Shown one piece after another: positions 2,226-26,086 of a stretch of DNA of 64,000 bases (the stretch's first letter is position 1; every line of letters starts with the position of its first letter). Location: contig JAJEKV010000114.1 of NCBI GenBank assembly GCA_021234155.1, positions 64,001 through 128,000 on the forward strand, given 5' to 3'. This stretch comes from Isoetes taiwanensis. Lineage: Eukaryota; Streptophyta; Lycopodiopsida; Isoetales; Isoetaceae. The notes under the pieces are model-generated. The model did no database searches. It was given only the letters and a program-made list of their open reading frames with translations, and was not told the DNA's origin. Both the position numbers and the translations under genes were made by a program.

Positions 2226-2475
2226 GGGACGTTTTTCCTGACGTTTTCTCTGACGCAGTCTAAGACATTTTTTCTGACGAAAAGTATGACGCTAAACCTG
2301 ACGCATAAATCTGACGATTTTTCTGACGATTTATCTGATGCTACTCGTGACGTTTAATTTTTGACGATTTATTTGACGTTTTTTCCTGACGATATATCAT
2401 CAGGAATTTAATCGTCAAGATATTCGTCAAGACATAGCCATCCAATTTGTCTGACGATTTTTCTGACGCCAAGCC
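2226..2475. repeat. Array of TGACG motifs
   Basis: About 250 bp holding at least thirteen TGACG pentamers on the plus strand (most as CTGACG followed by T-rich spacers of 5-15 bp) and two CGTCAAGA motifs in the opposite sense near 2418-2431. Unit length is irregular, so this is a motif cluster more than a clean satellite. TGACG is the core of the plant as-1/TGA-bZIP binding site. Clustered short motifs are also typical of DNA-transposon subterminal regions. The broken pogo-type transposase begins about 1 kb to the right, but no mirrored array is visible on its far side. Confidence 0.7.
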
Positions 2476-8035: not shown

Positions 8036-8545
8036 TTACCCTCCAGGTCCTCGTACTTGTGTTACTCTGCACCAAACTAGTCGACGATAACTGGAGGCGG
8101 GTTACTCGCACCAAACTATAACATCTTTGAAGCCTTACACTCTAGGTCCTGCCTTACACTCCAGTAACTGCTAGCGGGTTATTCTGCACCAAACTAGTCT
8201 ACGACATAAACGCTGACGCCTTACACTCTAGGTCCTGCCACTTGGGTTACTCCGCACCAAACTAGTCTATGTCATAAAGCAGAGGCCTCTGACACGTAAC
8301 TCGAGCCAAACTATTATGCGTCATGAACACAAAACTAGTCTGCGTCATGAATGCAGAGGCCTCAGGTGTTGAAAGACGCGAGTCTACGGCATAAACGCCG
8401 ATGCCTTCCACTCCAGATCCTGGCACTTGGGTTACTCTGCGCCAAACTAGTCGTGTCATGAATGCAGAGGCCTCAGATGCGTAACCCGAGCCAAACTAGT
8501 CTGCGTCATGAACGCAAAGGCCTCAGGCATTGAATGACCCGAGTG
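8036..8545. repeat. Minisatellite with CCAAACTAGTC core
   Basis: Degenerate tandem units of roughly 70-110 bp share the blocks GGGTTACTC.GCACCAAACTAGTC, GTCATGAA.GCAGAGGCCTC and CACTCTAGGTCCTG. The CAAACTAGTC core is seen at about 8073, 8183, 8258, 8334, 8443 and 8492. Unit order is scrambled towards the right, as in a satellite edge or decayed array. No coding function. Confidence 0.8.
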
Positions 8546-8960
8546 GATTGACTTTGGCCAAGTGGGTTGACTTTCACCAAGTCTTAAACTTTTTGGGAAA
8601 TGTAAAATACTAGAATGCACGATTTGTTCTGTTCTAGGTATCTACCAACTTATTTCATGTTAATCTGACAAGTACAAGTGCAAACAAGGGTGACTCAGAT
8701 TACTTCGCATAGAAGGGCTCTGCGTTCTCGACACAGGGGAGTTTGGCGTGAAGTGACTCGAGTGGGTCAATCTTGACTATTTGGTAACATTTTTGGGAAA
8801 TTTCAAAGTGATAGGATGCAAGATTGGGTCAATTCTAATCTATCCAGCAATTTTTCCCATGATAATTTATCAATTTTTAAGTACAAACAAGCCGACTCAA
8901 GTTACTATGTGCGAAAGGGACCTACGTTCTCGACACAGGGGCCTCTGGCATAGTTTGACC
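8546..8960. repeat. Two tandem copies of a ~200 bp unit
   Basis: The segment around 8591 (TTTTGGGAAATGTAAAATAC) recurs at 8791 (TTTTGGGAAATTTCAAAGTG), and GTTCTCGACACAGGGG recurs at about 8724 and 8926. The period is 200 bp and the copies have clearly diverged. The unit begins with a TTGACTTT-rich segment that continues from the neighbouring minisatellite. Confidence 0.8.
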
Positions 8961-9053
8961 TGAGTTGACTTTGACTTTTTTTTCTTCCTTTGATTCTATC
9001 ATTAATTCTAGGAATATATATACATACCAGCTCAAAATTTTATGCAAAGATTC

Positions 9054-9178
9054 CTAAATTTTATCTTTTCTAATCCTCTGTGCCAAGTTCATGTCCTTAA
9101 GTAGAAAGGTCATCCTCTTGGTGTGAATGGCGCAGGTCTTGGCCTCCTTGAAAAGTTGAGTTTGCTCCGCTTCGGCCG
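9054..9178 (-). pseudogene. Histone H3-like C-terminal fragment (copy 1)
   Basis: The minus-strand frame reads TAEAEQTQLF, then CAIHTKRMTF, then LKDMNLAQRIRKDKI and a TAG stop at 9056-9054. This matches the end of the histone fold of H3 (end of alpha-2, loop 2, alpha-3), including the CAIHAKR signature. The tail RIRKDKI differs from the RIRGERA ending of canonical H3 and resembles the divergent ends of CENH3-type variants. The frame is cut inside alpha-2 by the end of an LTR (LTR-A, from 9179). A related but separate copy lies at 14815-15060 and a long-tailed one at 24063-25180, all on this strand. Confidence 0.82.
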
Positions 9179-9430
9179 TGTGACGCTCCCTACAAAATAT
9201 ATGCCGCCCAGCCGTACACTCCGCAGGAAATCCCCTATTCGGTCCTTCGACCGCACAGGCCCTTCGTCTATCCCGCACTCCAGGGTGTCTCTAGTGCGGG
9301 AAGGGGACACGAAGGTGTCTTGCACGCCCTTCCCCTATGGGCTTCTATCACAGCAGAAGCATAAACAACGTCAGAACTAACAATAACAATACATCGAACT
9401 ACCTTGAAGGGTAGCATAAGCTAACTAAAA
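9179..9430 (-). mobile_element. LTR-A fragment (end nearest the primer-binding site)
   Basis: Closely matches 15232-15460 in base order, including the hairpin CCCGCACT...AGTGCGGG (9272-9279 and 9293-9300) and the block GAAGGGGACACGAAGGTGTC. It begins TGTGACGCTCC on the plus strand, the counterpart of TGTCATGCTCC in the better copy. The minus-strand LTR thus ends in ...CACA directly against histone-like codons with no primer-binding site between. Similarity fades after about 9430. Confidence 0.75.
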
Positions 9431-9690
9431 AGATTAAAAAGAGGTAAGTGTGAGGGCAATGGCTAATGATTCGTGCGTAGCGCGAGTCGGAGAGGATTCC
9501 CCTCTTTTTTAAATTGTAAGAAGCATCGAATCTGGACTTCTCGCGCTTAGTGCGAGCTTAACACAGTTTAATGAATTCCATATAATTTTTGAAATGTACG
9601 TGCTATTTCTCGTGCTAAGTGCGAGAAGCTTTGGGAAAAAGCTTAAAGACTTATTATGTAGCATAACTCATCTTCAGTCTTCGCCCGCAA
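9431..9690. other. Gene-free; two copies of a CTCG...CGAG inverted repeat
   Basis: CTCGCGCTTAGTGCGAG at about 9540-9556 and CTCGTGCTAAGTGCGAG at about 9609-9625 are related palindromic units about 70 bp apart. A weaker relative (GCGTAGCGCGAGTCGG) is near 9475. Confidence 0.55.
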
Positions 9691-10200
9691 GTTTTTTTTT
9701 TTTGAAGGACGGACAAAAAGTTTATTAATCAACAAGAATAAGTACAAAATGAATATTTCTCATCTAGTTGTGTAAGCATAAGAGGGTGCCGCTGGAACAC
9801 GAGCCTGCGACCATGTGCTTACTCTATACTAGATAAGTAAAAGGAGTGCCTCAGTTATACTAGGTACACATATGATACTGGAAGAAACAGGAGCATGAGG
9901 CAATGCCAGTGGATTGAGATGCACAGAAACCTGCCCCTCCTGCCCCTCAGATCCAACCGTGACTAACGATATTAAGCTCTTAGGAGAAGAAGGGGCACCT
10001 TCACGAGCTAGTTTATGGGCATCTCGAACACTAATCTTTGAAGAATCTAAAGCATATTCCCTTCCACCATTGGATGTACCCCATTAGGATTACCAGAGGA
10101 GCATTTGGAACAAATACGAGTTGATTTTGCCATCTCCACTAAAAGGGGCCGAGATTTCAGAGCTCAACAGTCCCCTACAAAAGAGACCCTTCTGATAAAT
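9691..10200 (-). mobile_element. Possible 3' end of a retroposed sequence
   Basis: A run of T near 9696 followed by sequence reading as a 3' UTR on the minus strand, and then a short minus-strand open stretch (about 10060-9890, including SSKISVRDAHKLAREGAPS) of unknown family. The poly(T) is what an inserted poly(A)-tailed RNA copy would leave on this strand. No target-site duplication was found, so the call is weak. Confidence 0.35.
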
Positions 10201-10554
10201 TTAAACATTATTTAAAGTAGCACCCCACGAGCTTTTTAGTGAGCCCAAGCAGGCCTAAAACTACCACCAAATGTAGGAATTATGGCAAAAAGAAGAATGC
10301 AGCCAAACCCTAACACCGCCAATAAAGGGCTGGAGCTGTCAGATGATTTTTCATTGCCAAAACAGTATAATCATCATACAAATCACATAATCAACAGAAA
10401 GGGTATGCAATGAGCTTTCTAATAAGCCCAGAATCATTCAGATCTGACATGGCACACTGACCCCAAGTTTTGGTCCACTGTTGAAAACTCTAGTTTTTGT
10501 AGGTCCACATGTACTTTATTCAGAGATCACGAAAAAACCTAAATGTAGATCTGT

Positions 10555-10790
10555 GGAAGTGTGGTTTTTTTAAGGAGCTGTGGTTTCTGTTTTTAGGAGG
10601 TGTGGTTTTTTAAAGAGGCATGTTTTCTGTTAAAAGAGCTGTGATATTTGTTTTTTGCGGTGGTGTTATTTTTAAGGACATGTAGTTTTTGAAGGTGTGG
10701 TTTATAAGTAAGTGTAGTTTTTAAGAAGGCATTTTTTTAAAGGATGTATGGTTCTCTAAAGGGGTGTGATATTTTAAAGCTCTTTATAGT
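10555..10790. repeat. Degenerate TGTGGTTTTTTAAG repeats
   Basis: About eight imperfect copies of a TGTGGTTTTTTAAGG-like unit at intervals of about 20-35 bp, giving a G+T-rich plus strand. Non-coding. Confidence 0.6.
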
Positions 10791-10814
10791 CAATTTTGTA
10801 AGCACCATTATACA

Positions 10815-10930
10815 ATCATTTCACTACTCCTATCCATATGACTCATCATCTTCTTATGTTATAAAGTTTTATCATCATTTCACTACTCCTATCCATATGA
10901 CTCATCATCTTCTTATGTTATAAAGTTTTA
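10815..10930. repeat. 59 bp tandem duplication
   Basis: ATCATTTCACTACTCCTATC and the sequence following it up to AAAGTTTTA is repeated immediately with a 59 bp period and almost no differences, so the duplication is recent. Confidence 0.9.
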
Positions 10931-11037
10931 CCGTAAGTGTGTGGACCACGCCTTAATTTAGATGGCTCAGATTGCATCCGAAGGTCAAGATTTATTGCAT
11001 GACTTCCCACCATTGTCATTGGTTATCGCTTTGATCT

Positions 11038-12455
11038 CTTAAGAGGAAAAGGAAAAGGGAGGATGAAAGGGGAAAATGAAGGGTAAAAAGGCACGAGGAA
11101 AAAGGGAAGAGGGAAAAAGGAAAAAGGAATGGAAAAGGGGGCAGAGAAAAAGGGTGAGGAAAGGGGAAGATAGCATAGGAAAAAGGAAAAAAATAGGGTA
11201 AAAGAAAAGGGGAAGGGAGGAAAAGGAAGGGAAAAAGGGCAACGGAAAAGGGGCAACGGAAAAGGGAAAGGGTAAGGAAATGAGGAAAAGGGAAGGAAAA
11301 AAGGGGAAGAGAAAAATGGTTGAGAGATGAAAAAAAGGCATGGAAAAATTAGGAGGAAAGGAAAAACGAAAAAGGAGGTGGCAATGGGAAAATGGAAGGT
11401 AAGAAACGGAAGAGGAAAATGGAAAAGAGGAAGAGGGGAAGGGCACGGGAAAAATTTGAAGAGGAAAAGGGTAAGGAAAAGAAAAAAACGAAAGCGAAAA
11501 AGAGCATGGGAAAGGGGAAAGGAAAAAGAAAAAGAGGGATAGGGAAATGGGAAATGGGGAAGAGGGTGGGAAATGAGAAGGAGCACGGAAGGAGGAAACG
11601 AAAGCGAAAAAGGCACATGGAAAAGGAGAAGGGATGAAAAAAGGAAGGCAAAGGAAAAAGGAAAAAACGCGGAGGGGAGGAAGGAAGGGAAAAAGAGCAC
11701 GAGGAAAATGGGAAAGAGGAAGGGGAAAGAGGCACGGGAAAAATGAAAGATGCAAAGGGTGAGAAAAGAGAAAGAAAGCAAGGGAAAAAGAGCATGGAAA
11801 ATGGAAATAGAAAAAAGAAAAAGGGGAATAGAGAAAGAAAAAAGGGAAAAGGGGAAGAGGGTGAGGAAAGGAGGAAAAAGGGCACGTAAAAAAGGTGGGA
11901 AAAAAGAAATGGAAAAAAACATGGGAAAAGGTAAAGGGAAAGAGAAAAGAAAAAGGAAGGGGAAAGGGAAAGGGAAAAAAGACACTAGAAAAAAGGGAAA
12001 GGACGGAGAAAGGATAAAAAATGAAGGAAAAAGAAAATGGAGATGGAAAGTGGGAGAGGGAAAGGAAAAAGGGTATAAGAAAAATAGGAGAGAGAAATGG
12101 GAAGACGGAGGGTATGGGATAAAGAGGAAGAGAGTGGGGAAAGGAAGAAAAGGGGCACATGAAAAAGACGGAAAAATGGAAACAAGAAAAGGGCATGGAA
12201 AAAAGGGAAAGGAAATGAGAAAAGGAAAAAGAAAAGGAAAGGAAAAGGCAAAAAGCGCACGGAAAAATTAGGAAGAAAGGGGAAAGATTGAAAAGGGAAG
12301 GGAAAAAATCCATCAAAAAATAGGAAAGGGAAAAAGGAAAAGGAAAAAGGGAAGGAAATAGAAGGGGAGGGAGAAGAGGGGTTAAAAAAAGAAAAAAAAA
12401 GGAGAACGGAAAAAGAAGACGTGTAGGGAAAATAGGAAAAAGGGACAAGGAAAAA
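11038..12455 (+). repeat. 1.4 kb polypurine low-complexity block
   Basis: The plus strand is almost entirely A and G, built from variants of GGGAAAAAGG and GGAAAAGGGGAA, with occasional GCAC or GCATGG interruptions at irregular 60-120 bp spacing. The long open frames in it (Phe/Ser/Pro-rich on the minus strand, Lys/Arg/Glu-rich on the plus) are by-products of composition, because stop codons are rare in such sequence. Mirror-like purine tracts of this kind can form triplex (H-)DNA. A shorter relative lies at 58258-58445. Confidence 0.92.
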
Positions 12456-12754
12456 TGAAAGTGCCCTCTCCTCGGGCCATAATTTCTAGAAGCTGTTTCG
12501 AGCTACAGTAACATTTTCGATCCCATATGAACAGTGTTTTAATTATATAATGGTTCAATGGTGATAATGTTAAATGTAGCAATGATTCTTAAGTTTTGTA
12601 GAGTTATTTGAACTTGAAGTGGAAATTCAAATAGCTTCACTTTCAAATTAAACTTGTTATTGAATTTGACTCTAATTTCCAACACGCGGTACTACTTGAT
12701 TGTATCTCCACGATACAATGTATCTCCGCGATACAGATGCAGTTTTTGTCAGGC
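12456..12754. other. Gene-free spacer with CTCC.CGATAC motifs
   Basis: TGTATCTCCACGATACAATG and GTATCTCCGCGATACAG (about 12699-12735) are adjacent imperfect repeats. The CTCCACGATA word recurs in the array at 13377-13470. Confidence 0.45.
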
Positions 12755-12925
12755 CTATTGTGTTGCAGCCACAATTACCACTCTTCAAAAATATACATCT
12801 AATGCACTCTTGTTCAAGTCTATTGTGCTGCAGACATAATTACTGATCTACCAAGAGGCATCTACAATTAGTGCACCATGTTCAAGCATATTACGTTGCA
12901 ATCGTAATTACCAATCTACCATGGG
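12755..12925. repeat. ~68 bp tandem repeat, 2.5 copies
   Basis: Units marked by CTATTGTGTTGCAG.CACAATTAC, CTATTGTGCTGCAGACATAATTAC and ATATTACGTTGCAATCGTAATTAC, each followed by a TACATCTA/GCATCTA and GTTCAAG block. Diverged copies. Confidence 0.75.
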
Positions 12926-13376
12926 TACACACAAGAAATAAAATTCTTATTCTCTATTCTGCATAAAGAAAATCAACTTACGAACTTTACCCATAAGTCT
13001 GTCCCATAGAAAATAATTTGAGATTCCGCATCCAAATTTTTAGCATCCGTATCCTTGACAGCTTGTCTGTAAAGTTCCTTCCCAATGCTTATCACTAAGC
13101 AAACCTGCAAATAAGGTCAAGTGTTAATATAAATGACTTCCAAAGTCAAATATTTATATAAATGACCCTCACGGCCAATCAATCTCTCAGATCACCACGA
13201 TCTGACTCTGCAATCCCAAGCAGGATGTTTCTGCGGTTCTCCATACTCAGGCTTAAAGGTTGGAATTTACACAGGCTCAAATGAGCAAGATGAACTTCTA
13301 GAGATGGCAAGAGGTTATGGCAGATAGTTCGGTTATTATGATAAAGCAGAGCTCAATGTTTTGCAGCAGTGGTTTA

Positions 13377-13470
13377 CTTGTCTCCATGACAAGCTATTTG
13401 TCTCCATGACAATTCGTCTCCACGATAAACTATTTGTCTCTATGACAAGCTTTTCCATGACAACCCAACA
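13377..13470. repeat. Short tandem array of TTGTCTCCATGACAA units
   Basis: Five imperfect copies of (AT)TTGTCTCCATGACAAGC within 95 bp. Each unit is itself partly palindromic (TTGTC...GACAA). It lies just downstream, in element sense, of the small LTR-B open frame. Confidence 0.75.
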
Positions 13471-13534
13471 GTCACCCTTATTATTCCATAATCCCCAAAG
13501 GATCATAGAAGTTTCCCCAATAATCCGAACTCAT

Positions 13535-13774
13535 TCATAATAAGTCGGTCCATATACTTCGAGCATTCTCCACGAAAACACCGAGTTTTCTTTTCTCTAC
13601 TACTGATGCTCCAGCTTCTCTTGCAACAATAGTCGCCAAATCCACCTTAGTTCCACTAACTGCTCTAATATTGAAATCATATGATTTCCCTTCATGCACA
13701 AAAGCTTTTACTCCATTAAGATAATCCAAATCTGTTCTTGTGAACCACAAAATGATAATCTCCTTTGATGCCAT
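13535..13774 (-). CDS. 79-codon open frame downstream of the LTR-B primer-binding site, unknown
   Basis: Starts MASKEIIILWFTRTDLDYL about 190 bp inside the LTR-B end and stops at 13535. I do not recognise it: no CCHC knuckle, protease or copia gag motif is visible. Its position is where gag would start in an LTR element, so it may be a gag remnant or captured host sequence. It could also be chance. Confidence 0.3.
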   Translation of the reverse strand: MASKEIIILWFTRTDLDYLNGVKAFVHEGKSYDFNIRAVSGTKVDLATIVAREAGASVVEKRKLGVFVENARSIWTDLL

Positions 13775-13960
13775 GCTCCAACAAAATGAGAACTAATAGT
13801 AGTCCTTGCAGCACATACAAAAACACTGATCTTTACGGCCCTCTGGAAAATTCCTAGCTCCAACATTTTTGACCTCTTTAATTCCTCTCACAGATTACAG
13901 AGTCCAAATTCCACTGGTGATCCCATTGCTCATGGTTCCCAAAAGAATCGCAAACCTCCA

Positions 13961-14800
13961 CTCTGATACCACTTGATACGATTCATGTATATTTGGGAAG
14001 TTGTAACAACACAGAATCAAAGAACCCATAATGAAATAATAGAACACTGGACTAAAAAAACTTTATTCATGCACAAGTGATATGGCAGCACCATTAACTA
14101 CCCAACTGGATCCACTGGATTATGGCAAAACACAAGTGCTATGGCAAACAAAAAGCTCTGGCTTATTGGCCCTCCAAGCTAATCTCACTACTCCAAGTAG
14201 CCACAGATCAGAAAGTAATTGCAAATCTGTAAAGTCGTTGTAGCAGTAATTTGTGACCCCCTATCACGTTTTCGGTCATTACTCCCTCATACGGATGAAC
14301 TATGAGATGTGCTGCCCTAATTCAAAAACTAGACTCCGAGCTAGTTCCAATGAGGTAAAGATTGTCGCAACCGGATCTCTGGTTGCCGCGATATGTCCAA
14401 CTGAAGTTTAGGTTCTATTTATAGATCTCTCTGCAACTTTAGCCTTTTTTAGCAGGCAATTGCATTTTATATCAAAATATCTCCTTGCCTTTAATTAGAT
14501 TATATGACTTATCATATGAAACATTATCTATGATATTTTTCTCAACCAATAATCATCCCAATGATAGTGCCTCGACCCCTGCCATAAATATCAATGGTTC
14601 TTGTTATCCTATGCCCCTTTATATTATTAGGTGACCTTAGGAATAACATTTACATAGTATTTGCCATAATTCCAATAACCTATTCGTCGTGGACCACTCC
14701 CCCGTGCTTGCTCCATATCAGCCGCCGCGATAAATTTCTTGTAGATATAAAGTTACGATATACAAAGATAGCTTATATATATAAAATTTAGCTTATGTAC
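13961..14800 (-). mobile_element. LTR-B with primer-binding site
   Basis: CTCTGATACCA at 13961-13971 is the complement of TGGTATCAGAG, the plant initiator-methionine tRNA primer-binding site. Two bases later a sequence begins TGATACGATTC (13974), the expected LTR terminus of a minus-strand element. Inside, CTATAAATAG on the minus strand near 14425 is a good TATA box pointing the same way. The far LTR edge is uncertain, somewhere between 14745 and 14802, just beside histone-like copy 2. I found no second LTR in the window, so the element is incomplete here. Confidence 0.6.
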
Positions 14801-14814
14801 AAAATTGAAGCTCT

Positions 14815-15060
14815 TTAAGGCTTCTCCTTGCGGATCCTCCTCGCCAGGTGGAGGTCCTTGGGTCACCGTCACCCGCTTGGCGTGGATCGCGCATAGGTTG
14901 CCCTCCTCAAAAGGTTGAATGAGCTCCGCCTCTGCTGCCTCTTGCAGGGTTCAGACCATCAGGGGTGTGACCTGTAGTTAGTCCAAAAATCCTGCATTAT
15001 TTCTCGAACAAGCCGTTCGAAGGTCGCCTTCCTGATGAGGAGATTATCTACGTCTAACAA
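14815..15060 (-). pseudogene. Histone H3-like histone-fold fragment (copy 2)
   Basis: The minus strand reads NLLIRKATFERLVREIMQDF (about 15047-14988), then after a one-base deletion YQVTP in loop 1, then a TGA, then [17 protein letters not shown] and [10 protein letters not shown]. After another one-base shift it reads [15 protein letters not shown] and TAA (14817-14815). This is the whole fold from alpha-1 to the C-terminus with no intron. Loop 1 (YQVTP) differs from canonical H3 (LRFQSS) and is shared with copy 3; the C-terminal RIRKEKP is shared with copy 1. Two frameshifts and an internal stop make it dead. It lies about 150 bp inside the LTR-A end and its primer-binding site. CENH3-like variant is my preferred identity; a different divergent H3 cannot be excluded. 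Confidence 0.85.
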
Positions 15061-15213
15061 CTTGACTTAATTTTACGAACCCACTACCTAGGAAAAAAAA
15101 TTTCCCCCTATTTTTGAGATTCACTGGTGGAATTTTCATCCCACACCCTATTAGGCCAGTTAGACTACTTAACTAGGGATATGGTCAGTGCTAGTTCTTG
15201 GTCAACCAAGAAC

Positions 15214-15231
15214 ATGGCTCTGATACCATTG
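15214..15231 (-). other. Primer-binding site of the LTR-A element
   Basis: The plus strand GGCTCTGATACCAT is the complement of ATGGTATCAGAGCC, the initiator-Met tRNA primer-binding site used by many plant LTR retrotransposons. It directly abuts the LTR-A terminus TGTCATGCTCC at 15232, fixing the element's orientation as minus. Confidence 0.8.
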
Positions 15232-16690
15232 TCATGCTCCTTACAAAATATACGGCCCCCAGCCATACACTCTGCAGGAAATCCCCTATCCGGTCCTTCG
15301 ATCACACAGGCCCTCCGTCTATCCCGCACTCTAGGGTATCCCTAGTGCGGGAAGGGGACACGAAGGTGTCTTGCACGCCCTTCCCCTATAGGCTCCTATC
15401 ACAGCGGAAGCATAAACAACGTCAGAATTGAACTACCTCGAATGGTAGCACATCCGTACATCCATAGATACAATAGAGATAAACATATGCCATAAAATAT
15501 GGGAGCTCCTACCCAAGGCTCAGACTCATATGGTGGTAGACTGACGGCTAGGCCACAAGATAGAGCAGACCGAGTCATAACAATGGCAGGGCTGGCTCGA
15601 GACAATGGCTAGGGTTGACCACTCCATCTGCCCCTCCTGTGCATACTTTGCAGATCGGCTAGATCGGGCTCTGGTACGGCTCTAGCCTTCCGGATACGCA
15701 ATCTCATGGTATCACCCATTGAAACTGCTCCAAATTGCATCTTCCCGGTCCGTTGAGGCAGGAAGGGTTCCATCTCCCCTTCCCGGGGTCTAGAGGCGAC
15801 ACACGATTCTTCCCCGACTTAACCCCCCAAAACAAGAGCCAGGCCGTCACCTGCAGCTCTTGAGAGGCAGGGCAACACCATTGCCCCAGGAGGTGTCGGA
15901 CTCATGCCCGGCCCACTCGAAGTGACCGGCCATAAGCCTAGACCGCTATGGGGTCCCCAGTAGCCACGCTCAGCAGGGACCCTCCCTCCGTCTCGCCTCT
16001 AGCCCCGTTATGTAGTGCTGAGTCATACTATAGCTCCCATAGCCCAGTGGGTTCCTATGCAATAATAGGAACTAAAGGGTCTAATCTATGAGCATTACTA
16101 AGTAATGGCTGCTAGGTCTCTACCCCCCTTCCTAATACAAGAGGAGCAAACATGATCAACCAACATATATCCACATAATATGATAATCATGAGAATAACA
16201 TCTAAACCTAATCATATATATCTAACTTACAGTTAGAGTTCATTGATTAGGGTTCAAGATGTAGACTAAGGGTTCTAGGAAGGCTTTACTAGAGACAGAA
16301 ATGCTAACCCATCTGGAGTCCTAACTTCCAGATGATCTACAAAGAACTCTAATCCCAATACCTGCTCCCGATGAACTCCCTCCTAATCCCAGCGTCTCCA
16401 TGATCTTCGAGGTGGTCAAAGTAGTGCTCGCGCTCCAAGATCGTGCACACGCTCTGGGGGCTGCTGTGCTAGGCTATGCCACAGCAAACAACTCTCGAAA
16501 CGGAGTTTCAAGCGCGAAGAAGATTCCCAGGGTGTTGGAGCCAGAAAAGAGGCCTAGGGTTAGGGTTTAGGCTTATATAGGTTAGGGTCCACATGTGATG
16601 CCAAGTGGCTCCAATGGGATATGGCCGTGTGGCAGCTGCCCTATAGGATGAGGCCGCATAGAAATTGGCCTTATCCTAAGGGTATCCTAT
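15232..16690 (-). mobile_element. LTR-A, most complete copy
   Basis: About 1.45 kb. Its near third matches 9179-9430, its middle matches 60863-61600 (for example TACCCAAGGCTCAGACTCAT), and its far part matches 25430-26000 (for example CATTGATTAGGGTTCAA and CTAACTTCCA.ATGATCTACAAAG). Overlapping matches to three separate copies define it as one long LTR. On the minus strand a TATA box (CCTATATAAGCC, about 16567-16578) points towards the primer-binding site. A hairpin CCCGCACT.../AGTGCGGG lies at 15323-15351. The outer edge is set only by loss of similarity near 16690. No gag-pol of its own follows; histone-like copy 2 does. Confidence 0.75.
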
Positions 16691-17050
16691 ATTATAAAAC
16701 CGTGGCATCGGTCTGTCCGCCCGAACGACAGCCCAGATCGTCCCAACGTCCCTCCGGCGCTATCAACGTACTAGATTGTCCCGCTGTCTTTTTGCAACTA
16801 TCGACGCCTCAAATTGTGCCACATGGCATTATCAAACATTAAAAATTGAAGGGGCACGTGAAACAAACCCTTTCGTCAACCAGAACTTTCAAAATATGTT
16901 TTTTATTATCCCAACGTGGCGTCATTTTCAGATTTTTATTGCCTTTTTTCCACTGTCCCGAATACCTTTCTGGCCGCTACGAAAGAATTGCTCAAAATTT
17001 TCCAGGGTGACATCATCCTAGAGTTTCTCTCGGTTGCTAGAACCCCTCGG
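16691..17050. other. No gene recognised; flank of the copia insertion
   Basis: May include the outermost part of LTR-A. It ends with CTAGC at 17051-17055, the target duplicated by the copia element. Confidence 0.5.
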
Positions 17051-17055
17051 CTAGC
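17051..17055. repeat. Target-site duplication, left copy (CTAGC)
   Basis: CTAGC directly precedes the left LTR and recurs directly after the right LTR at 19969-19973, a 5 bp duplication typical of copia integration. Confidence 0.92.
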
Positions 17056-17254
17056 TGTTAGCGAAGCTGCCTATTCTTAGGCAGCGTGCCTTTATAAAAA
17101 GGCGACGAGAGCTCCTTATAGCTTTCACCTTTTTCCATAAAAATACCTTTATGGTATCTATATATTGTAACATCATTCATTCAATAAAACGTGTCTTGTA
17201 TTGTGGTGCAATTCTCTCTTTTCTGTTTTCTTAGTAAAACTTGTAAATTCAACA
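17056..17254 (+). repeat. Left LTR of the copia element
   Basis: 199 bp, TGTTAGC...TTCAACA. It contains a short inverted pair (GCTGCCTATTCTTAGGCAGC) just inside the edge, a TATA-like TTTATAAAAA at about 17091-17100, and a polyadenylation-type AATAAA near 17183. Matches 19770-19968 base for base as far as I can read. Confidence 0.95.
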
Positions 17255-18622
17255 TGGTATCAGAGCCTGCATCTGGTTCTGGTGCGGTTGTGAATTTCCG
17301 AGGACTCACAGGCACAAAAAGTTTGTATGTTTTTTCTGGAGCTGGATATCCAGCCTGGAAGATCAAGATGGAGCTTGTTCTACAAAGTGAAAAGCTCTTT
17401 GGAATCGTGACCGGAAATAATATTCCTCCGGTGCAGCCGGTTGATGTAATTACCAGTAATCTTATTCAGAACGGTGTTGAATATGATACTTGGATTAAAC
17501 AGGTAGATGAATGGAATGAAAAGGATCAAACCGCTCCTCAAAGAATCTATTTTAATGGATGCTAAGGATTTTGTTACTTCTAGTGAAGTATGAAAGTATT
17601 TGGAGAAAACTTATATGAAGAAGACTATGCATGAAGTGCTTAGTCTCCGCAAGGATCTTACATCGTTGCAGTATCGTATGAATGATTCATTTGACGAACA
17701 TGTGGATAAATTTAAAGCGCTTCTAGAAGCACTGTCTGCAGCTGGTGCTAGTATTCCGCATGATCAACATGTTGTTTATTTTTTGGAATCCATGCCGGAA
17801 GAGCTTCAGACTCTTACGATAGTTCTAGCCAGCAAAAAATCTATGACCTTAGATCGGGCTTGTGAATCTTTAAAAGATGGAGTACGAAAATTACAAAGGC
17901 AATCTATGCAAGACGATCAAGCTTTAATTGTTGCTAATAATAAACGAGGTCGAGAAGATGAAAAGGCAGCCTTTGTTACTGATACAAAGGCTACTCGTAG
18001 TCGCAGTAGAAGCTGGCGTCGTGGTGGTGATACGCAGCAATTGGCTAGACTTGAACAACCTAAGTCAGAGACTGTTTGTGCCTATTGCAAAAAGACGAAT
18101 CATGTTGAAAGCGAATGTTATTATAAACGCTTTGTTAATGAGCATAAATCTTTACTCCAGGCAATCCGAGATGGACCTCATATTTCAGATGAACATGCAA
18201 ATGTTGCATGTGATGAAGCCGGTTTCTCTACAGGAGCTGTTGTTTCCATGATCATTGATTCTGGTGCAACACAGCACATGACTTTTCATAGGCATTGGTT
18301 GAGGAATTATCGCTCGCTTCAACTTAGAAAACTTGTGTTTCTTGGTGATAACACAACTCATGAGGTCAAAGGCATTGGAGATATTCATGTTGATACTTCC
18401 AGTGGTGTGCAAGTCTTGTATGGTGTCTTACATGTGCCTGGTTTACGCCGGAACCTTATTTCTGTGTCTAGGCTTGTTGATCTTGGTTTATCCATACAAA
18501 TTGATAGACGATTATGTAGCTTCATTCAAGATGGATGTGTACTTGGAGTTGCCCAGAGACAAGGTCGATTGTACGAGCTTAAATTGACTGATAATTTTGT
18601 GAATCTTATGCAGTGGAGATGA
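17255..18622 (+). pseudogene. copia gag and protease, frameshifted
   Basis: The first open piece runs to 17565 and the second from 17600 to 18622. The true frame leaves the first near 17535 (one-base shift) and then meets TGA at 17591 where Trp would be expected. Recognisable parts: UBN2-type gag (QYRMNDSFDEHVDKFKALL), a CCHC knuckle (CAYCKKTNHVESECY, about 18080-18124), and the aspartic protease active site (IIDSGATQHMTF, about 18252-18287). The frame then shifts again near 18620 into the GAG-pre-integrase region. Gag and protease would package and process the element; this copy cannot make them. Confidence 0.88.
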
Positions 18623-19564
18623 ATCAAGTACACTGTGGCATTGTCGTTTTGCACATGTCGACTTTCAATATTTATTGAATATGGCCTCTGATAGAACTGT
18701 GGATGGTCTATCATTGAGAAGCACTGCATCAATGGGTGTATGTGAGGCATGTGCTGTTGGGAAGCAACATCGTCGTCCTTTCAATGAGAAAGGAAAATGT
18801 GCAACACAGCTTTTGGAGCTTGTGCATGCTGGTATATGTGTGCTTTGAGTGGTGCACGATATTTCATCTTGTTTGTAGATGATTTTTCCCGTAGAGTTTT
18901 TGTATATTTTATCTCTACGAAGTCTCAGGTCTTCACCAAATTTCAAGTGTTTAAGAATATGGTGGAGACTCAAATTGGCAAAGTGATCAAGAGATTACGT
19001 ACGGACAATAGTGGGGAATTCACGTCTGCTCAATTCAAGTGTTTTTGTGAAGAGCATGGCATAGTTTGTGAGCCTATCATCACTGATTCCCCTCAGCAAA
19101 ATGGTATTGTTGAGTATCAAGAATGTGCGATAATCACTGTTGTTCGATGTATGCTTCTTCATGCTGGCTTGGATAAGTCATTTTGGGCAGAAGTTGTGGC
19201 TACTGCTGTTTATGTGCAAAATCGATCAGTAACTTCTTCTCTGAAAGGCGTAACTCCTTTGCAATTATGGACAGGAGTCAAACCAAATGTTCAAAATTTG
19301 CGAGTTTTTGGTTGTCTTGCCTATGTTCATATTCCACAAGAGAAGAGAAAGAAACTTGCTTCAGTTGGTCTCAAATCCATATTTGTTGGTTATGTTGTGG
19401 AGGCACAGGGATATCGATTTTATGATATTGCTACACGAAGAATCATTATTAGTCGTGATGCAGTGTTTGATTCTAAGTTTTGCAGATTCCAATGTGAATA
19501 TAAGACGCTCTCAAGAATATTTTATGGTGATTGCGCTCAAGAGAAGGTTTTCTTCTGCATTTAG
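18618..19564 (+). pseudogene. copia GAG-pre-integrase and integrase, frameshifted, RT missing
   Basis: The GAG-pre-integrase segment (LWHCRFAHVDFQYLL, then CEACAVGKQHRRPF, about 18640-18790) is in a different frame from the protease, and another shift near 18840 leads into the integrase core at 18797-19564. Core motifs: FVDDFSRRVFVYF (first Asp), RTDNSGEFTS (second Asp) and SPQQNGIVEYQE with the catalytic Glu region. It continues through the C-terminal FVGYV block and stops at 19564. No RT motif (for example YVDD) follows in any frame before the right LTR. Confidence 0.88.
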
Positions 19565-19769
19565 TTTTATTACCAAATCGCAGGAGTAAATATTAGAAAA
19601 TTGTAGCACTCGGATTTTTTCCTTTGTGACCACCAAAGGTTTTTTTCATCCGAGTGCGAGACCAAATTTGCAGGTGGGGAGATTATCTATGAGTTGTGAG
19701 TTGCAATATTTGGTCTTCATTTTTGGACACGATATTTTATTTGGTGAAAGACTAAAGTCGCAGGTGGGG

Positions 19770-19968
19770 TGTTAGCGAAGCTGCCTATTCTTAGGCAGCG
19801 TGCCTTTATAAAAAGGCGACGAGAGCTCCTTATAGCTTTCACCTTTTTCCATAAAAATACCTTTATGGTATCTATATATTGTAACATCATTCATTCAATA
19901 AAACGTGTCTTGTATTGTGGTGCAATTCTCTCTTTTCTGTTTTCTTAGTAAAACTTGTAAATTCAACA
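19770..19968 (+). repeat. Right LTR of the copia element
   Basis: 199 bp copy of 17056-17254, followed by the right target duplication CTAGC at 19969-19973. Confidence 0.95.
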
Positions 19969-19973
19969 CTAGC

Positions 19974-20589
19974 TGCTCTTCCAGTTCAATATCTGTATTT
20001 CTAGAATTAAAGGAACTATGGGCATTTCTCTTGGAAACCATAAATTCTTAGCGTATGAGGGCATGATTTTAGCGGTGGTAGGAAAACCACAAAAGCTCAG
20101 GTTATGAGGGCACGATTCTAGCGGTGGTAGGAGATCTGTGGGCAAAATCTTGGCATTTATTATTACATTCAGTTCCAACTCACGTCGGAACATGCCTATC
20201 AACAAGAAACACCAATAGATTCGCACCTTCTTTTAGGAAAATTGGCCAATTCCAGCAATTGGTAAGGAAAATTCTTGCTCTGATAGCGGGTTTGGTGATA
20301 GTTTTCTTTGGCATATCCATCTATCTTTTGCCTTGAAAAAGCTGTATTGTAAGGGTTTGTTTTGGTTACTATTAGGATTTCTATAGGAGTTGCGGCAGTT
20401 CTGAACTTCGTTTTTCAAGCTTATTATGACATGATGCCATAGCCGGCCTTGCTCTTTAAGAAGGTTTGTTACCCTGTAAGCTTTTCAACCTTTTCCTGTA
20501 AGTTCGGGATTAAACTAGATTGGTTTTGTTTGGAAAAGCAAGCATATTTTGTTCTGTAAAGTAATTTGAAACAGGTATCTTCTTACTCG
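19974..20589. other. Gene-free; two copies of a TTAGCGGTGGTAGGA unit
   Basis: TATGAGGGCATGATTTTAGC at about 20054 recurs as TATGAGGGCACGATTCTAGC at about 20103, each followed by GGTGGTAGGA. Otherwise no feature seen. It may be a degraded upstream part of the WD40 relic. Confidence 0.4.
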
Positions 20590-21345
20590 GTTATGAGAGA
20601 GTTCAATTATTTAGGAAATGCAAGGATGTTACCATCCAGTTGTTTCCTACTGTGCGAAAATAACTCATGATGAAAATGCCATCACAAATGCAATTGAAAT
20701 ATACAACTCTTCTAGGTAAGAAGTTGCACCTATAGTTGAGGCTCTAGGTAGCCTACCTATGATGCATTATTGTTGCAGTGGTGCGATCCAATTGATGACA
20801 TCAAACAATGATTCTGTTGTTTATATGTTTGATACTGAGAAGTTTGCAGTGCTTGGACATTTCTTTTTCTCCTGGCCGGTTAATGTAAGTAGTTCCTATA
20901 TGTTGAGGAGGTTCAAAGGGTGTGGTCTATTATGATGATGAGTTTGTTGCCTTTCCACAACATACATTAGTTAGTCCAGATGGTAAAATGGTTGTCGTAG
21001 TTGGTGATAATGCCGATGGTTTCCTTTCTGACAGCCAAAATGGGAAGGTAGCTCTTTGACTTTGTGTGATGCCTTTATTGTTTAGCAACCAACAAATTAA
21101 TATGATGTGCATCACAGGTCGTAGCGTTTAAAAGAGCATGTTGATTATTCTTTTGCATGCATCCAGATGGAAGAGTGTTTGCTGCTGGTAACAAGGATAC
21201 TACTTGTAGACTCTGGGACATCAGAAATTTAAGTTGCTCTTTAAATGTTTTGAAGGGACGGATTGGGGCTATTCGATCCATCCGTTTCACGTGCACGTGT
21301 TTGATGCAAAACAAATCCCACTGCTTAAATTATAAAGCATGAATT
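20590..21345 (+). pseudogene. WD40-repeat protein relic with introns
   Basis: Plus-strand pieces match, in order, the C-terminal half of a plant WD-repeat protein family that includes Arabidopsis At1g36070 and At1g78070 (named from memory of the family). They are ITHDENAITNAIEIYNSS with a consensus donor GTAAGA at about 20718; GAIQLMTSNNDSVVYMFDTE to FSWPVN with donor GTAAGT at about 20886; HTLVSPDGKMVVVVGDN to NGK (20950-21047); and HPDGRVFAAGNKDTTCRLWD to GAIRSIRF (21159-21294). The acceptor before HTLVSPDG reads CACAA where CACAG is expected. The VDYSFA..HPDGR junction has lost bases and shifted frame. Introns are kept, so this is a decayed duplicate and not a retrocopy. A further possible exon lies at about 21600-21790 but is badly diverged. 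Confidence 0.78.
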
Positions 21346-22380
21346 CCATAGCATAGCCATTCGTTATTGAGCGGTGTTTAATATCTGTCTACGCATTGCT
21401 CCTTCAGCCTACCATTTCTTTTAGCCTGCAATGCATCAAGTGTCTTCTAATAGGATTTCCAACAGGAATTGGTGTTGCAGCTGCAACGTTTAAACTTACA
21501 ACTACATAGGTTACTTACCTTTTTTGCAGTCATATTGCGTCTTTATACTGCATAATTCCAGCATATGATCAACAAGGCTTCTTACAGGTTAACATATAAT
21601 AGTGTCCTTTCTGCGTCAGTCATGATGGTTCTAAGAATGAGGGATGCCGCTGCTTTCTTTTATCATAAAGATTACTTGATCATACCAGAATTGGAGCTTC
21701 ATAGCTATAGTTTGACCTTTTTGGGAAGAGAAGATCATGCACCTGGGTCTACCATATTTCTGCACAAGCTGTTGCCTGTTGGATTGTAGAAGTCATGATG
21801 CTTTATCTTCAGAAATTGTTCTTGATAATGCTGCGACATATGTTGCGACCGATGTTTGCAATTATTGGGAAGATGTCCACCCACCCAGATACATCTTATT
21901 TTCTTTTACATAGTATTTTCTTTGTCTTCCTTCTGATATTGATTAAAGCCTCCATGGATATATTCAGCAAATAGTTGCTTCTCATATTCTGTTCATAAGA
22001 AAGAAACAAAATGCAAAGTTCTGGTGATCTTTGCAGCAAAATGCTTTCAAAATAGCAAAATAGGTTTAAGAAATTAATTAGCAAGCTGATGAAGTAAATT
22101 AAACAAATGTGGTTCAGCTACTTCTTCCACTAATCCTTGAATCCAAAGTGCGTAATCCTCTTTCTTTTCATAACTAGGCCAAGACAGACAGAAAACTGCT
22201 TAAATGCTACATTTTGGTAAGATTTACTGAAACAACTTAGTCCCATCCATCCAAGATGACAAATGATTTTGTTCTTGGGTGTTTTGACATAGCCATTTAT
22301 TTTAGTGCAATAAGGACACAGACGTAATTGGATGCAAAATAATAATCTTTTACTGCAATAACCATATCTTTCACTGCAAT
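21346..22380. other. Possible WD40 relic tail, otherwise no gene
   Basis: The plus-strand frame 21565-21789 contains MRDAAAFFYHKDY, which could correspond to the AEAADFVH..  part of the WD40 protein, but the match is poor. No other gene recognised. Confidence 0.3.
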
Positions 22381-22421
22381 AAAGCATTATTATCGCAATA
22401 CTTCTTTCGCTGCAGAAAGGA

Positions 22422-22489
22422 ACAGTCCCACACATTCCATTAAACAACACATCCAACAGTCCCACACATTCCATTAAACAACACATCCA
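22422..22489. repeat. 34 bp perfect tandem duplication
   Basis: ACAGTCCCACACATTCCATT and the following AAACAACACATCCA occur twice back to back with no differences. Confidence 0.92.
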
Positions 22490-22587
22490 CGTACTAGACA
22501 AAGCGAGAATTTCTTTCCTTGCCTGATTGATTCTTGGTGTAGAAGATATGTACATCACATATTAGGTTGTCTTAACATCCACCGCTT

Positions 22588-22668
22588 TTATCTATCTATG
22601 TACCTATCTGCCTATTTATTTATCTACCTATCTAGCTAGCTAGCTACCTACCTACCTACCTATCTCAA
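22588..22668. repeat. Compound tetranucleotide microsatellite
   Basis: Mixed TATC, TACC, TAGC and TGCC units over about 80 bp, with pure runs CTAGCTAGCTAGCTA and CTACCTACCTACCTA. Confidence 0.92.
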
Positions 22669-23494
22669 AACCCATGTACAATATTGGCAACCACATAGTT
22701 TATTAATGCTCTAGACATATCTACTCATGTGACATTTATTTTCTAATGGATATGTAGAAAATACGCAGAATAGATGATCCAGTAAGGTCCGAAACATATG
22801 AATAAATATGTCATACCCATCATATAGGTCTTCCTAGATGCCATCTACAAGAAAGCAAATTGCTCAGTCAGTCCATATGCAAGAATTGTCAACTAGGGGG
22901 ATGACACACTCCTCAAAAATATTTGTAGGCAGAGATCCGGTAGTATCGTAGATGTGTTCAAATGTGAAGCAATGTGCACGAAGCTGAATCTACAGAATAA
23001 ACAGAGTCGTGTAACGCAGCCAAGCCATATATATATGCAGTTGCTCACATCAACTTTCACATGAGGACACTAGCTATCACTATAAATCAGGGATTGATTG
23101 AAAGCTGATTTAGTCCACAATAACTCATTATATTTTTTCGTCAAGGGCAATCATTGAGGAAGTCAATGAAAGAAAGAGTAAAGTTTATTGATGTTCCTTT
23201 GATAATGTGCAAAGGTCTTGCGTGCATAGATGTTTGCCACAATAACTTAGAATGTATAATTTCCTATATTTATTTCAACTATTTTTCATACGTATAACTT
23301 CTACATGCATTTCATTTGTATTTATTACTTTACATTTGAATACATGTTGTGCAAATAGTGAATATCCATTGCATATATTGTGCATACATAGATAGATAGT
23401 TGGTTGCATACAAGGTATGAAGTTATAATACAATGAGTGCCAACAATTATTATTGAATTTCTATCTAATAGATATAACCTCAACAATATGCATA
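22669..23494. other. No gene recognised
   Basis: AT-rich non-coding sequence; no domain or repeat stands out. Confidence 0.5.
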
Positions 23495-23537
23495 GACAAT
23501 CACATAGAAAGCCCACTGAAGGTGGGCAATTTTCTAC
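23495..23537. repeat. Hairpin-bearing direct repeat, copy 1
   Basis: ACAATCACATAGAAA, then GCCCACTGAAGGTGGGC (6-bp stem), then AATTTTCTA. The same module recurs at 23892-23932. Confidence 0.8.
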
Positions 23538-23891
23538 TTCAAATATATTTGAGACCATATCTAGATGTCTAAATTGCTAATTCTTGATAGAGGCAAATAA
23601 GTAAATGAATCGAGATTAAATTTCAAAATTTTAACCAAGTTATGAAAGAGAAACATGATCAAATATCCATTAACACCGGCAAACTGCATCAAAAACAAAA
23701 GCCTGATTTGGCAAAGAAAGCGCTTTACATTTTTACAACAAGGAGGACTTTTGCAATAACAAAACAGATGAAGACACTAATCAAACTAGGTTTCCCACAT
23801 CAAAGGACACAACCACATCTTATCGTACATTAAGAACTCAATTTAACGTCACTTACTCATAGGCAACACATTAGTCTCCCAATCTTCATAT

Positions 23892-23932
23892 ACAATCACA
23901 TAGAAAGCCCACCAACGGTGGGCAATTTTCTA
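23892..23932. repeat. Hairpin-bearing direct repeat, copy 2
   Basis: ACAATCACATAGAAA, then GCCCACCAACGGTGGGC (7-bp stem), then AATTTTCTA. Only the loop-side bases differ from copy 1, about 400 bp to the left. Confidence 0.8.
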
Positions 23933-24046
23933 GTCTAAGTTATATAAATAACTTAGACATGCACCTCATGCCAATAGTTAAGGGTATACAAGGCTACGAA
24001 AGTAGACTTGTATAGTGACGGACCCAGAAATATACGTATTTATGGC
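23933..24046 (-). mobile_element. LTR-A outer-edge fragment, left of histone-like copy 3
   Basis: TAAGTTATATAAATAACTTAG, TACAAGGCTACGAAAGTAGA and CCAGAAATATACGTATT parallel the outer part of the LTR-A piece at 25980-26086 (TAAGTTATATGAATAGCTTAG, TACAAGGCTACTAAAGTAGA, CCAGAAATATATGTATT). With the other piece at 25430-26086 it brackets the histone-like sequence. Confidence 0.6.
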
Positions 24047-24062
24047 GTATATTTCCCTGGAA

Positions 24063-25180
24063 CATCACAGGCCGCTTCCTGGCATGACCGCAATATCGTT
24101 GGTGTGACTTGATAGTCTATCTTGAACTCCTGCATAATCCCTTGATGTAGGCACTCAAAAAGAGGCTTTCTGAATCATCAAATTGATGCACTGTTGGCAA
24201 TGTTAGATCTCCCAAGAAGCTCTACTGTGCTTGGAATTTCGCCCATGGCGGACCTTCTTCGGAGAGTCGGGTCGAGGTGGTGGAGGCTTGCTTTTCGACC
24301 TTAGTCGGCTGCCTTTGACGAATCTCGGCACTCTGCTTGTAGTACTGGTAATTATATCGGATCTATCGGCAAAGATAAGTTTTGTACGTTGCCTTCTTCT
24401 TCGTGTACTCAATGTCTTGCTTCAGTTTAAATGGCTTCTTGCTCATCTTGTACTCCTTGGCCCTCCTCTTGGGTAGCTTGGGCCGCACTGGATATGGTGG
24501 CCGAGTGTGGGCTCCATCTATTCTGCGGCTTCCTCTTCCTCCTCTTCTTTAGACTCTTGCTCCTCTTCTTATCGGTGTGTTTCCTCTCTTGGACTTCGTC
24601 CTTCTACGGTTCATCGGTTGTGGTTCTCGATAACCACACTCCCTCTCCGCCTATCTTCACGCCTCTTTGTTCGTTTCTCTCTTGCCTACGTCTCTTCCTC
24701 CCTTGCGACCACTTTCTCCTTGCCATTTTCTTCCGCATTGTTTGCTCCTCTTGCTGCTCTTCCTGCTGCAGGGGTTGCTCTTGTTGTCGAGGTTGCTCCT
24801 GCTGCTTGCTCCTAAACTTCAGAAGCGGATGCTATAATCTCAATTTCTCCTGAGCCTCGCGATCATTCACCTGAAGTGCTAAGTCGCTGCTCCTCCAAGA
24901 GTGATATGATTAGATGCGAAGAAGAGCTTGGGTGGCTAGGTTCGTCATCTGGCCTAGGCCGCGGGGCCTCAAGAATTTGTTTGTCGCTGCCCGCCGCGAG
25001 TGCTTCAACGTTCAGATGCAAGTTGGAACTTCCAACCTTCCTAGCTGACTGTTTGGTCCTCCCAACAACTTGTCTTCTTTGATGTGGCCTTTTCGAGAGC
25101 TCTTTCCTCCATTGATGGTCGATTGTGTGTATTCGCGGCACCATTGGGTCGATCTCACAGACTATTCGTTTGGTGCCCAC
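24063..25180 (-). pseudogene. Long-tailed histone H3-like (CENH3-like) pseudogene (copy 3)
   Basis: On the minus strand the H3 N-terminus is visible as GRTKQSARK near 25063, with GTT-GGG where ATG-GCN would be. About 270 codons later comes KKVRHGRN...WEI (24260-24203), aligning with H3 KKPHRYRPGTVALREI. A TAA then replaces Arg and HCQQCINLMIQKASF follows in frame, aligning with RYQKSTELLIRKLPF. After a one-base shift it reads IMQEFKIDYQVTP in alpha-1/loop 1 and CQEAACD in alpha-2, where it stops at the LTR-A fragment. Between tail start and fold lies an R/K/E/Q/S-rich stretch of about 830 bp with several stops; canonical H3 has about 30 residues there, while CENH3 tails vary greatly. Either a long tail or unrecognised introns would explain the spacing. 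The YQVTP loop is shared with copy 2. Confidence 0.78.
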
Positions 25181-25429: not shown

Positions 25430-26086
25430 TGGCTACTAGGTCTCTATCCCCCTTCCCAATACAAGAAGAGCAAATATGATCAATCAACATCATATATCCA
25501 CATAACATGATAAATAATGAGAATAACATCTAATCCTAATCACATGCATCTAACTACGGTTAGGATTCATTGATTAGGGTTCAAATCTAGGCGAGGGTTC
25601 TAGAATGGCTCTATTAGAGATACGAAATGCTAACTCATCTAGAATCCTAACTTCCAAATGATCTACAAAGGAACCCAAATACCTACTCTTGAGGAATTCC
25701 CTCCTGCTCCTGGCGTCTCCATGGCCTTCAAGGGGTTACCAATGCGCGCATGCTCAGGTCAATTGCGTTATGCTAACACGGGCCGGTTTCGAAATGGAGT
25801 TTCGTGTGAACAAGGGTTCAAGACTTTTGGAGCGAGAAAAATGGCCTAGGGTTAGGGTTTGGCCATTTATAGGTTAGGGTTCCATGTCAGCACCCACGTG
25901 GCTCCAATGGGGGTGCTTCCATGTGGCGGGTACCCAATAGGGTGAGGCCATGTATAATGACCCTATACCTAAGATTGGCTAAGTTATATGAATAGCTTAG
26001 TCAATGCTCCTTTTCCCGCATACTATGGTGTACAAGGCTACTAAAGTAGACTTGCCGCGGTGTTTATCGCCAGAAATATATGTATT
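25430..26086 (-). mobile_element. LTR-A fragment (outer part)
   Basis: Matches 16105-16690 closely: GGCTACTAGGTCTCTATCCC, CATTGATTAGGGTTCAAAT, CTTCCAAATGATCTACAAAG. On the minus strand a TATA box CCTATAAATGG lies near 25868. It continues beyond the end of the match to 26086, where it shares its last 100 bp with 23933-24046. The part next to the primer-binding site is missing. Confidence 0.72.

Follow-up and report, generated by a model that had tools for sequence, protein, structure and literature searches.

What is a histone gene doing, in pieces, beside a long terminal repeat (LTR)? The question is raised by a stretch of 64,000 nucleotides from Isoetes taiwanensis (contig JAJEKV010000114.1, positions 64,001 to 128,000; C924:64001-128000 in our numbering, hereafter the window), in which a tblastn search located three H3-like pieces, all on the minus strand and none of them an intact gene. 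Alignments to two related genome copies, E7 and EA, agreed with the original prediction that each piece touches the same LTR family, called LTR-A. The three pieces are most probably (at about 0.87) remnants of internally deleted copies of a chromovirus whose lineage captured an H3 gene and multiplied it into thousands of copies. At the level of sequence, the capture and spread of the H3 part, its position in the element, its open frames in many copies, the purifying selection on its fold and the retention of its contact residues are all established, and a capture kept under selection by the chromovirus appears almost certain.

Linkage of H3 and LTR-A in the genome

The genome searched comprised 1,658,258,908 bases in 1110 contigs. 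A combined query of LTR end, primer-binding site (PBS), leader and H3 gave 2894 candidates, the best 40 of which were scored; among these, 24 LTR-A leader matches lay outside the window and its near-duplicate on contig C1037. An H3 fold was present 1-2 kb downstream of the leader in 15 of the 24 (11 from the genome search itself and 4 of 13 from further fetched loci). The association is therefore not confined to the window, and the recurrence of H3 at the same internal position bears out the earlier proposal that an LTR element captured the gene and spread it.

A profile search with PF00125 pointed to the same expansion. The best 150 of 8705 candidates were scored, all above the cut-off. Fifteen of the 150 matches began at profile position 2, and the ten of these that were fetched were all ordinary H3 genes. 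Thirty-six other matches were cut out, and these carried an H3 fold with element-type changes, mostly at the C-terminal end of a longer open frame of up to 494 amino acids. Since such candidate counts are rough, codon patterns were counted as a second measure. With host genes included, the pattern for NLCAIHAKR was found at 2164 genome sites and that for MARTKQT at 2727, and the reversed patterns at none. H3 is the sole amplified core histone, because protein searches of the genome with H2A, H4 and H2B gave 107, 69 and 31 candidates, against 7051 for a CENH3 fold query.

Two minor observations belong here. Within the first 100 of the 2727 MARTKQT sites, an exact NLCAIHAKR followed on the same strand within 2.5 kb at ten, twice at 324 bp, the spacing of ordinary H3 genes, and eight times at 980-1037 bp, that of the element frame described below; the other 90 may represent tail-bearing families with a more diverged fold. 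Also, about ten fragment repeats of H2A occur genome-wide, matching residues ~14-65 with one stop each.

Organization of the H3-bearing elements

Related genome copies show the order 5' LTR, PBS, open reading frame 1 (ORF1), ORF2, gag-pol with a chromodomain, and 3' LTR. ORF1 thus sits between the PBS and gag, and it ends in the H3 fold. Two kinds of element were recognised, LTR-A and a second one termed group I. In the group I element E2 (C908), the 5' LTR (1528-3164) and PBS (3162) are followed by an ORF1-H3 frame at 3746-5200 (485 amino acids), an ORF2 frame at 5386-6795 (470 amino acids), a gag-pol frame at 7743-11897 (1385 amino acids), further integrase and the 3' LTR at 13127-14762. The LTR pairs of the group I elements E2, E1 and E3 are 96.5%, 93.9% and 93.7% identical. 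The LTR-A element EA (C1067) has its PBS at 1835, ORF1 at 2400-3530 (a frame of 377 amino acids with MARTKQTARK) and a gag-pol frame at 9542-13651 with reverse transcriptase, RNase H, integrase and chromodomain. The PBS motif stands at the LTR end in group I elements E2, E3 and E6 and in LTR-A elements EA, E7 and the window copy; the exact motif was not found at the LTR end of E1.

Profile searches found gag, protease, reverse transcriptase, RNase H and integrase in gypsy order, with a weak match to a gag zinc knuckle. The chromodomain (PF00385) was matched at E 3.1e-10 in the LTR-A element and 8.2e-10 in group I E1; no match was reported for the E2 fragment, whose frame is broken. Judged on these sequences, the H3-bearing elements are a Ty3/gypsy chromovirus lineage. 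Between E2 and EA, gag-pol is 67% identical, ORF2 20-23% and the H3 folds ~60%, and the remaining part of ORF1 does not align.

ORF2 is a frame of 400-500 amino acids between ORF1 and gag-pol (e.g. L067:1-1422 and L007:4135-5352), 20-23% alike between E2 and EA or E7. No Pfam match and no histone signal (hhalign probability <1%) was obtained for it. A resemblance of its C-terminus to H2A, noticed by eye (..VNRDLAIAV.. vs ..VPRHIQLAV..), was rejected by sequence, as searches with Pfam, PDB and hhalign brought no substantial match. Beside E7, on C1025, a second element kind was seen at L007:7502-9433, with a PBS at 7502, MARTKQNARK at ~8196, an H3-like fold at 9216-9433 and an ORF2-like frame at 10119 (positions in L007 and L008 joined). 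LTR-like sequence of this kind also occurs in the window (60863-61607, minus strand, matching E7 7500-6772), and tblastn of the window gave no H3 match beside it.

Two kinds of H3 fusion in ORF1

In LTR-A, ORF1 begins with MARTKQT(A/Y)RK, continues with an acidic and basic linker of 257-277 residues, basic directly before the fold, and ends in the H3 fold. That linker length separates tail residue 10 from fold residue 39, against 28 residues in ordinary H3. Among twelve LTR-A loci chosen for long frames, tail and fold share one open frame in seven, in one case with the fold cut short, and ORF1 is then 365-385 amino acids long from the first methionine. At 15 LTR-A loci that were not chosen for the tail, MA(R/H)TK was present in 13 (eight MARTKQT, four MARTKC and one MAHTKY).

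Group I ORF1 has an unrelated N-terminal domain, without a Pfam match of weight, then a linker of charged or glutamine-rich appearance, and then a nearly canonical H3 fold. Its N-termini vary (MPRFKL, MET.KQV, MANTKS and once MARTKGTK). The group I folds are identical to host H3 at 78-86 of 97 positions, leaving 11-19 changed (n=36), as compared with 96-97 of 97 in host copies (n=10); the LTR-A fold is more divergent from host H3 than the group I fold. A complete H3 fold was recognised by PF00125 in three ORF1s (131-144 bits), and LTR-A ORF1 matched nucleosomal H3 in PDB at 4e-32. ORF1 is not a contiguous H3 of 135 residues with a 38-residue tail: the tail is either replaced or split from the fold by the long insert.

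Selection on the H3 fold

Median pairwise ratios of nonsynonymous to synonymous substitution (dN/dS) were calculated by the method of Nei and Gojobori, leaving out pairs with infinite dS or dS <0.05. In group I (31 ORFs) the ratio was 0.037 for the fold, 0.139 for the N-terminal domain and 0.208 for the linker, the fold value being biased downwards because the sample was picked from top histone scores and long frames. In LTR-A (11 ORFs) the fold had 0.059, the segment directly preceding it 0.087, and the tail-and-linker part 0.233. Twenty further loci were chosen by ORF2 and not by H3. All 20 had an H3 fold upstream, stop-free in 12, and tail and fold had a ratio of 0.099 where the N-terminal domain had 0.141, with 34 H3 pairs and 67 N-domain pairs skipped for their dS or short overlap. 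The H3 fold is thus under purifying selection, a constraint that holds in the ORF2-chosen sample at a less extreme level.

Residue conservation was compared over 36 group I and 11 LTR-A folds. C110, H113, K122, D123, L126, R129 and I130, which we take to be H3-H3 and chaperone contacts, are invariant where present. Of the residues that presumably contact DNA, R63, R69, R72, R83, K115, R116 and T118 change in at most one of the 47 folds each, and R49 in two. This pattern fits continued pairing of the ORF1 protein with H4 and contact with DNA.

The three pieces in the window

The features of the three copies, all on the minus strand, are as follows.

Copy 1
9179..9416, minus: LTR-A 3' end (E7 1566-1329, 90% identity), joined directly to H3-like sequence
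9060..9176, minus: C-terminal half of the ORF1 H3 fold (AEAEQTQLF...CAIHTKR...RIRKDK), from tblastn
8642..8800, minus: piece of the ORF1-ORF2 spacer (matches E7 3652-3810, 72.5%)
Copy 2
15230..16699 (at least to 16699), minus: LTR-A LTR (15053-16699 corresponds to E7 1743-52, 87%; inner end set by the PBS)
15217..15228, minus: PBS TGGTATCAGAGC, from a motif search, presumably of initiator methionine (iMet) type
15048..15216, minus: leader, from PBS to deletion junction (leader and H3 search)
14795..15046, minus: decayed ORF1 H3 fold (NLLIRK...RIRKEKP) in two frames with stops (tblastn and E7 alignment)
12355..17367, minus: whole stretch around copy 2, 87.5% identical over 5170 columns to L009 (C1037:16655500-16660499), with the same leader-to-H3 junction
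Copy 3
25430..26044, minus: LTR-A piece, outer part of the repeat (E7 646-1, 75%; EA 15153-14509)
24941..25066, minus: decayed ORF1 N-terminus with H3 tail (VGRTKQSARK)
24245..24940, minus: decayed ORF1 linker (the end up to 24331 matches E7 ORF1, 24158-24331, E 4e-7; the rest assigned by position)
24070..24244, minus: decayed first half of the H3 fold, from tblastn
23934..24069, minus: LTR-A piece directly abutting the broken H3 fold (EA 14450-14584 and E7 1-65)

Copy 1 is a C-terminal piece only (9060-9176; E 2.8e-8 to H3 and 3.6e-11 to LTR-A H3), and the PBS, leader and N-terminal ORF1 are missing between it and the LTR end, which it directly abuts, as had been noted before. In copy 2, placed near the PBS by the original prediction, the order is indeed LTR, PBS (at 15228), leader and H3, with the junction at 15046/15048. 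Its H3 match (14818-15045) runs in two frames (6e-10 and 1.6e-15), and ~1.3 kb of the ORF1 N-terminus is absent in comparison with E7, EA and L010. Within the best 40 of the 2894 candidates, leader and H3 are contiguous only here and at C1037:16657613, and the stretch common to both appears to be a deletion-derivative copy or a duplication. Copy 3, whose flanking by LTR-A on both sides was also seen again, retains a half fold (3.3e-11) and a tail (2.9e-4 to the LTR-A ORF1 N-terminus); ORF2 and gag-pol are missing between the half fold and the adjoining LTR-A piece. Since stops or frame changes interrupt copies 2 and 3 and none of the three is complete, the window pieces are best read as dead, internally deleted element copies, remnants of the first reading frame of the LTR-A element. 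A second PBS-like motif was found at 13971 (minus strand), ~0.9 kb beyond copy 2 and inside the region shared with C1037, perhaps from a nested element.

Relation to CENH3

The three pieces had first been taken for a divergent CENH3-like variant, in part for their shared features. The loop 1 sequence YQVTP, said to be common to copies 2 and 3, exists in copy 2 only across a frame change (the frames read YRSHP and LQVTP). Copies 1 and 2 do share the C-terminus RIRK(D/E)K, which had been called non-canonical and which is close to RIR(K/R)E(R/K)P, the usual C-terminus of LTR-A ORF1.

Descent of LTR-A H3 from a CENH3-type gene and not from canonical H3 now seems very unlikely, and the CENH3 reading is not supported. 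Loop 1 has the canonical length without the CENH3 insertion: the group I loci show a two-residue gap against Arabidopsis CENH3 (HTR12), and the LTR-A folds are as long as host H3. The tail is the canonical MARTKQTARK in several copies of the family. In the phylogenetic tree LTR-A stands on its own long branch (100/100) with CENH3 elsewhere, the deeper forks being weakly supported, and the best tree groups the elements with each other and not with CENH3 (61/26, weak). On the other side, an approximately unbiased (AU) test did not reject LTR-A H3 and CENH3 as one clade (p 0.42, with long branches), and LTR-A reads RHFQ..TNLLI like HTR12. From the canonical loop 1 length and tail, LTR-A H3 is read as probably of canonical H3 origin.

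A host CENH3 was not found by fold or pattern searches, which does not show its absence from the genome. The best 150 of 7051 candidates from the HTR12 fold search, at 54-60% identity, contained none that was distinct from ordinary H3 and element-like frames, and the pattern AEALxALQEA had no genome site. The pattern CAIHARRVT had seven, six of which were fetched and were all element copies; the seventh (C1049:12536148) lies directly before an ORF2 match.

Possible role of the ORF1 protein

What the captured H3 may do for the element can be argued from the same data. In a tentative scheme that we rank as the likeliest mechanism, though with the odds somewhat against it, ORF1 would be translated as the first long frame of the genomic RNA, its product would pair with host H4 through the intact fold, H3 chaperones would handle it, and it would be laid onto DNA as an H3 surrogate, which would connect the element complex or the sites of insertion with chromatin. 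In LTR-A such a link could come from the K4/K9 tail together with the chromodomain of the integrase. A stronger version, rather unlikely in our judgement, is that the chromovirus encodes both a reader, the integrase chromodomain, and its mark, an H3 of its own whose K4/K9 tail is intact, and that element-specific nucleosomes guide or shield its own insertions. One aromatic residue of the HP1-type cage is kept in the chromodomain, judged by eye; binding of methylated K9 is uncertain because the others appear to be absent.

Several observations weigh against these interpretations or against the capture itself. MARTKQ occurs in none of the 36 group I frames, so a link between tail and chromodomain cannot be general. 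The LTR-A fold is changed at K56, K79 and the core of loop 1 (L82Y, F84V), and its nucleosome geometry may differ from the canonical one. The downward bias of the group I fold ratio has been mentioned; the ratio of the ORF2-chosen sample was less extreme (0.099), and H3 had a stop in 8 of those 20 loci. In nine of the 24 LTR-A leader copies the tested stretch contained no H3 fold: three give an early match to the ORF2 side (one inverted), four keep the ORF1 linker without the fold and two match nothing useful. Finally, no LTR pair was found for EA in the stretch fetched.

A histone-mimic decoy, in which the tail and fold of ORF1 keep the element expressed by binding up or diverting silencing factors of the host (K9 methyltransferases, DDM1-type remodellers, H3 chaperones), is unlikely, although two facts speak for it: the tail recurs in the 13 of 15 unselected loci while synonymous sites among these 13 differ at 0.65, and MARTKQT is coded 2727 times. 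The low nonsynonymous difference (pN) of the tail was conditioned by the search expression and is not used as evidence. However, the fold is more constrained than the tail-and-linker part and group I ORF1s have other N-termini; the constraint in both kinds of ORF1 favours histone-like action over pure tail mimicry. Another possible role is packaging, with the ORF1 protein and host H4 condensing the cDNA or RNA of the element inside the particle or the pre-integration complex, in the manner of giant-virus histones. The DNA-contact residues listed above, none of them changed in more than two of the 47 folds, and the basic stretch before the fold would suit this idea, which we still hold to be distinctly unlikely, given that H3 was the only histone recognised in the element, ORF2 has no histone signal and gag has its own zinc knuckle (weak).

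Gene capture by LTR elements is often neutral, and the window copies are dead, as would be expected if the H3 part were a passenger without a role. This is very improbable and already contradicted, since dN/dS lies far below 1 across divergent subfamilies and is lower for the fold than for the adjacent parts of ORF1. The probability is vanishingly small for the second proposal of the original prediction, that a single decayed host H3 locus received LTR-A insertions repeatedly or was duplicated together with LTR-A. Deleted copies do get duplicated, as the 5 kb shared by copy 2 and C1037 illustrate, but on many contigs H3 occupies one and the same place inside the element, after the PBS, which contradicts a single locus, and it precedes gag-pol in the elements read through. 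Capture of H3 by the chromovirus lineage therefore remains our preferred reading.

Comparison with known systems

Host-gene capture by LTR elements is known. No histone among the captured genes, and no retrotransposon carrying one, was found in the literature searched, which consisted of open-access records, mostly titles and abstract openings, with subscription papers mostly outside it. In the main text of the I. taiwanensis genome paper (PMC8566536), as covered by a word search, the word 'histone' is absent. Orchid Ty3/Gypsy elements with an AlkB-type m6A demethylase ORF are similar, according to the parts of that paper at hand, in being plant Gypsy elements with an extra ORF for a host-type domain in several subfamilies, but their captured domain is an RNA demethylase and not a histone; the extra domains given in those parts (AlkB, CHROMO, PMD, AIR1, G-patch, KOW, ArgoL2 and B3) include none named as a histone (PMC9289625). 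Plant and fungal chromoviruses, including the Tcn1-like elements of non-seed plants, share gag, protease, reverse transcriptase, RNase H, integrase and C-terminal chromodomain with the lineage in the window, which differs from them, as far as the sections at hand describe them, by the H3-fusion ORF1 and the ORF2 upstream of gag (PMC2864245).

Giant DNA viruses such as Medusavirus and Melbournevirus likewise are mobile genomes with their own core histones, but in the portions available they are described as DNA viruses that encode several or all core histones (PMC11500106, PMC12297534), whereas in the retroelement only H3 was recognised, fused to new sequence. The element H3 resembles host H3 and CENH3 in its fold, the canonical length of loop 1 and, in many LTR-A copies, the canonical first residues. 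It differs from host H3 in 11-19 of 97 fold positions in group I and in more in LTR-A, and in having its tail split off by a long insert or replaced.

The family may show how a mobile element can interfere with host DNA packaging. A constrained H3 fusion that accompanies a chromodomain integrase in thousands of copies allows a direct test of a transposon writing its own chromatin; the reader-plus-mark reading, if true, would give the first retrotransposon-encoded nucleosomal histone. The H3-bearing elements also account for the seeming explosion of H3-like sequence across the genome, which would mislead counts of H3 or CENH3 genes.

Other features of the window

By eye, pieces of a Pogo/Tigger-like transposase with a long alanine-rich repeat were seen at 3786-5595 (minus strand). 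GC content reaches 0.54 at 52001-54000, as compared with ~0.37-0.38 in neighbouring windows, in a segment without an Rfam match, and 11023-12500 is a purine-rich region of 1.5 kb (AAGGG/GAAA) with short tandem units. A Copia-like element with PBS, gag and integrase frames, also seen by eye, lies at 17255-19564 on the plus strand.

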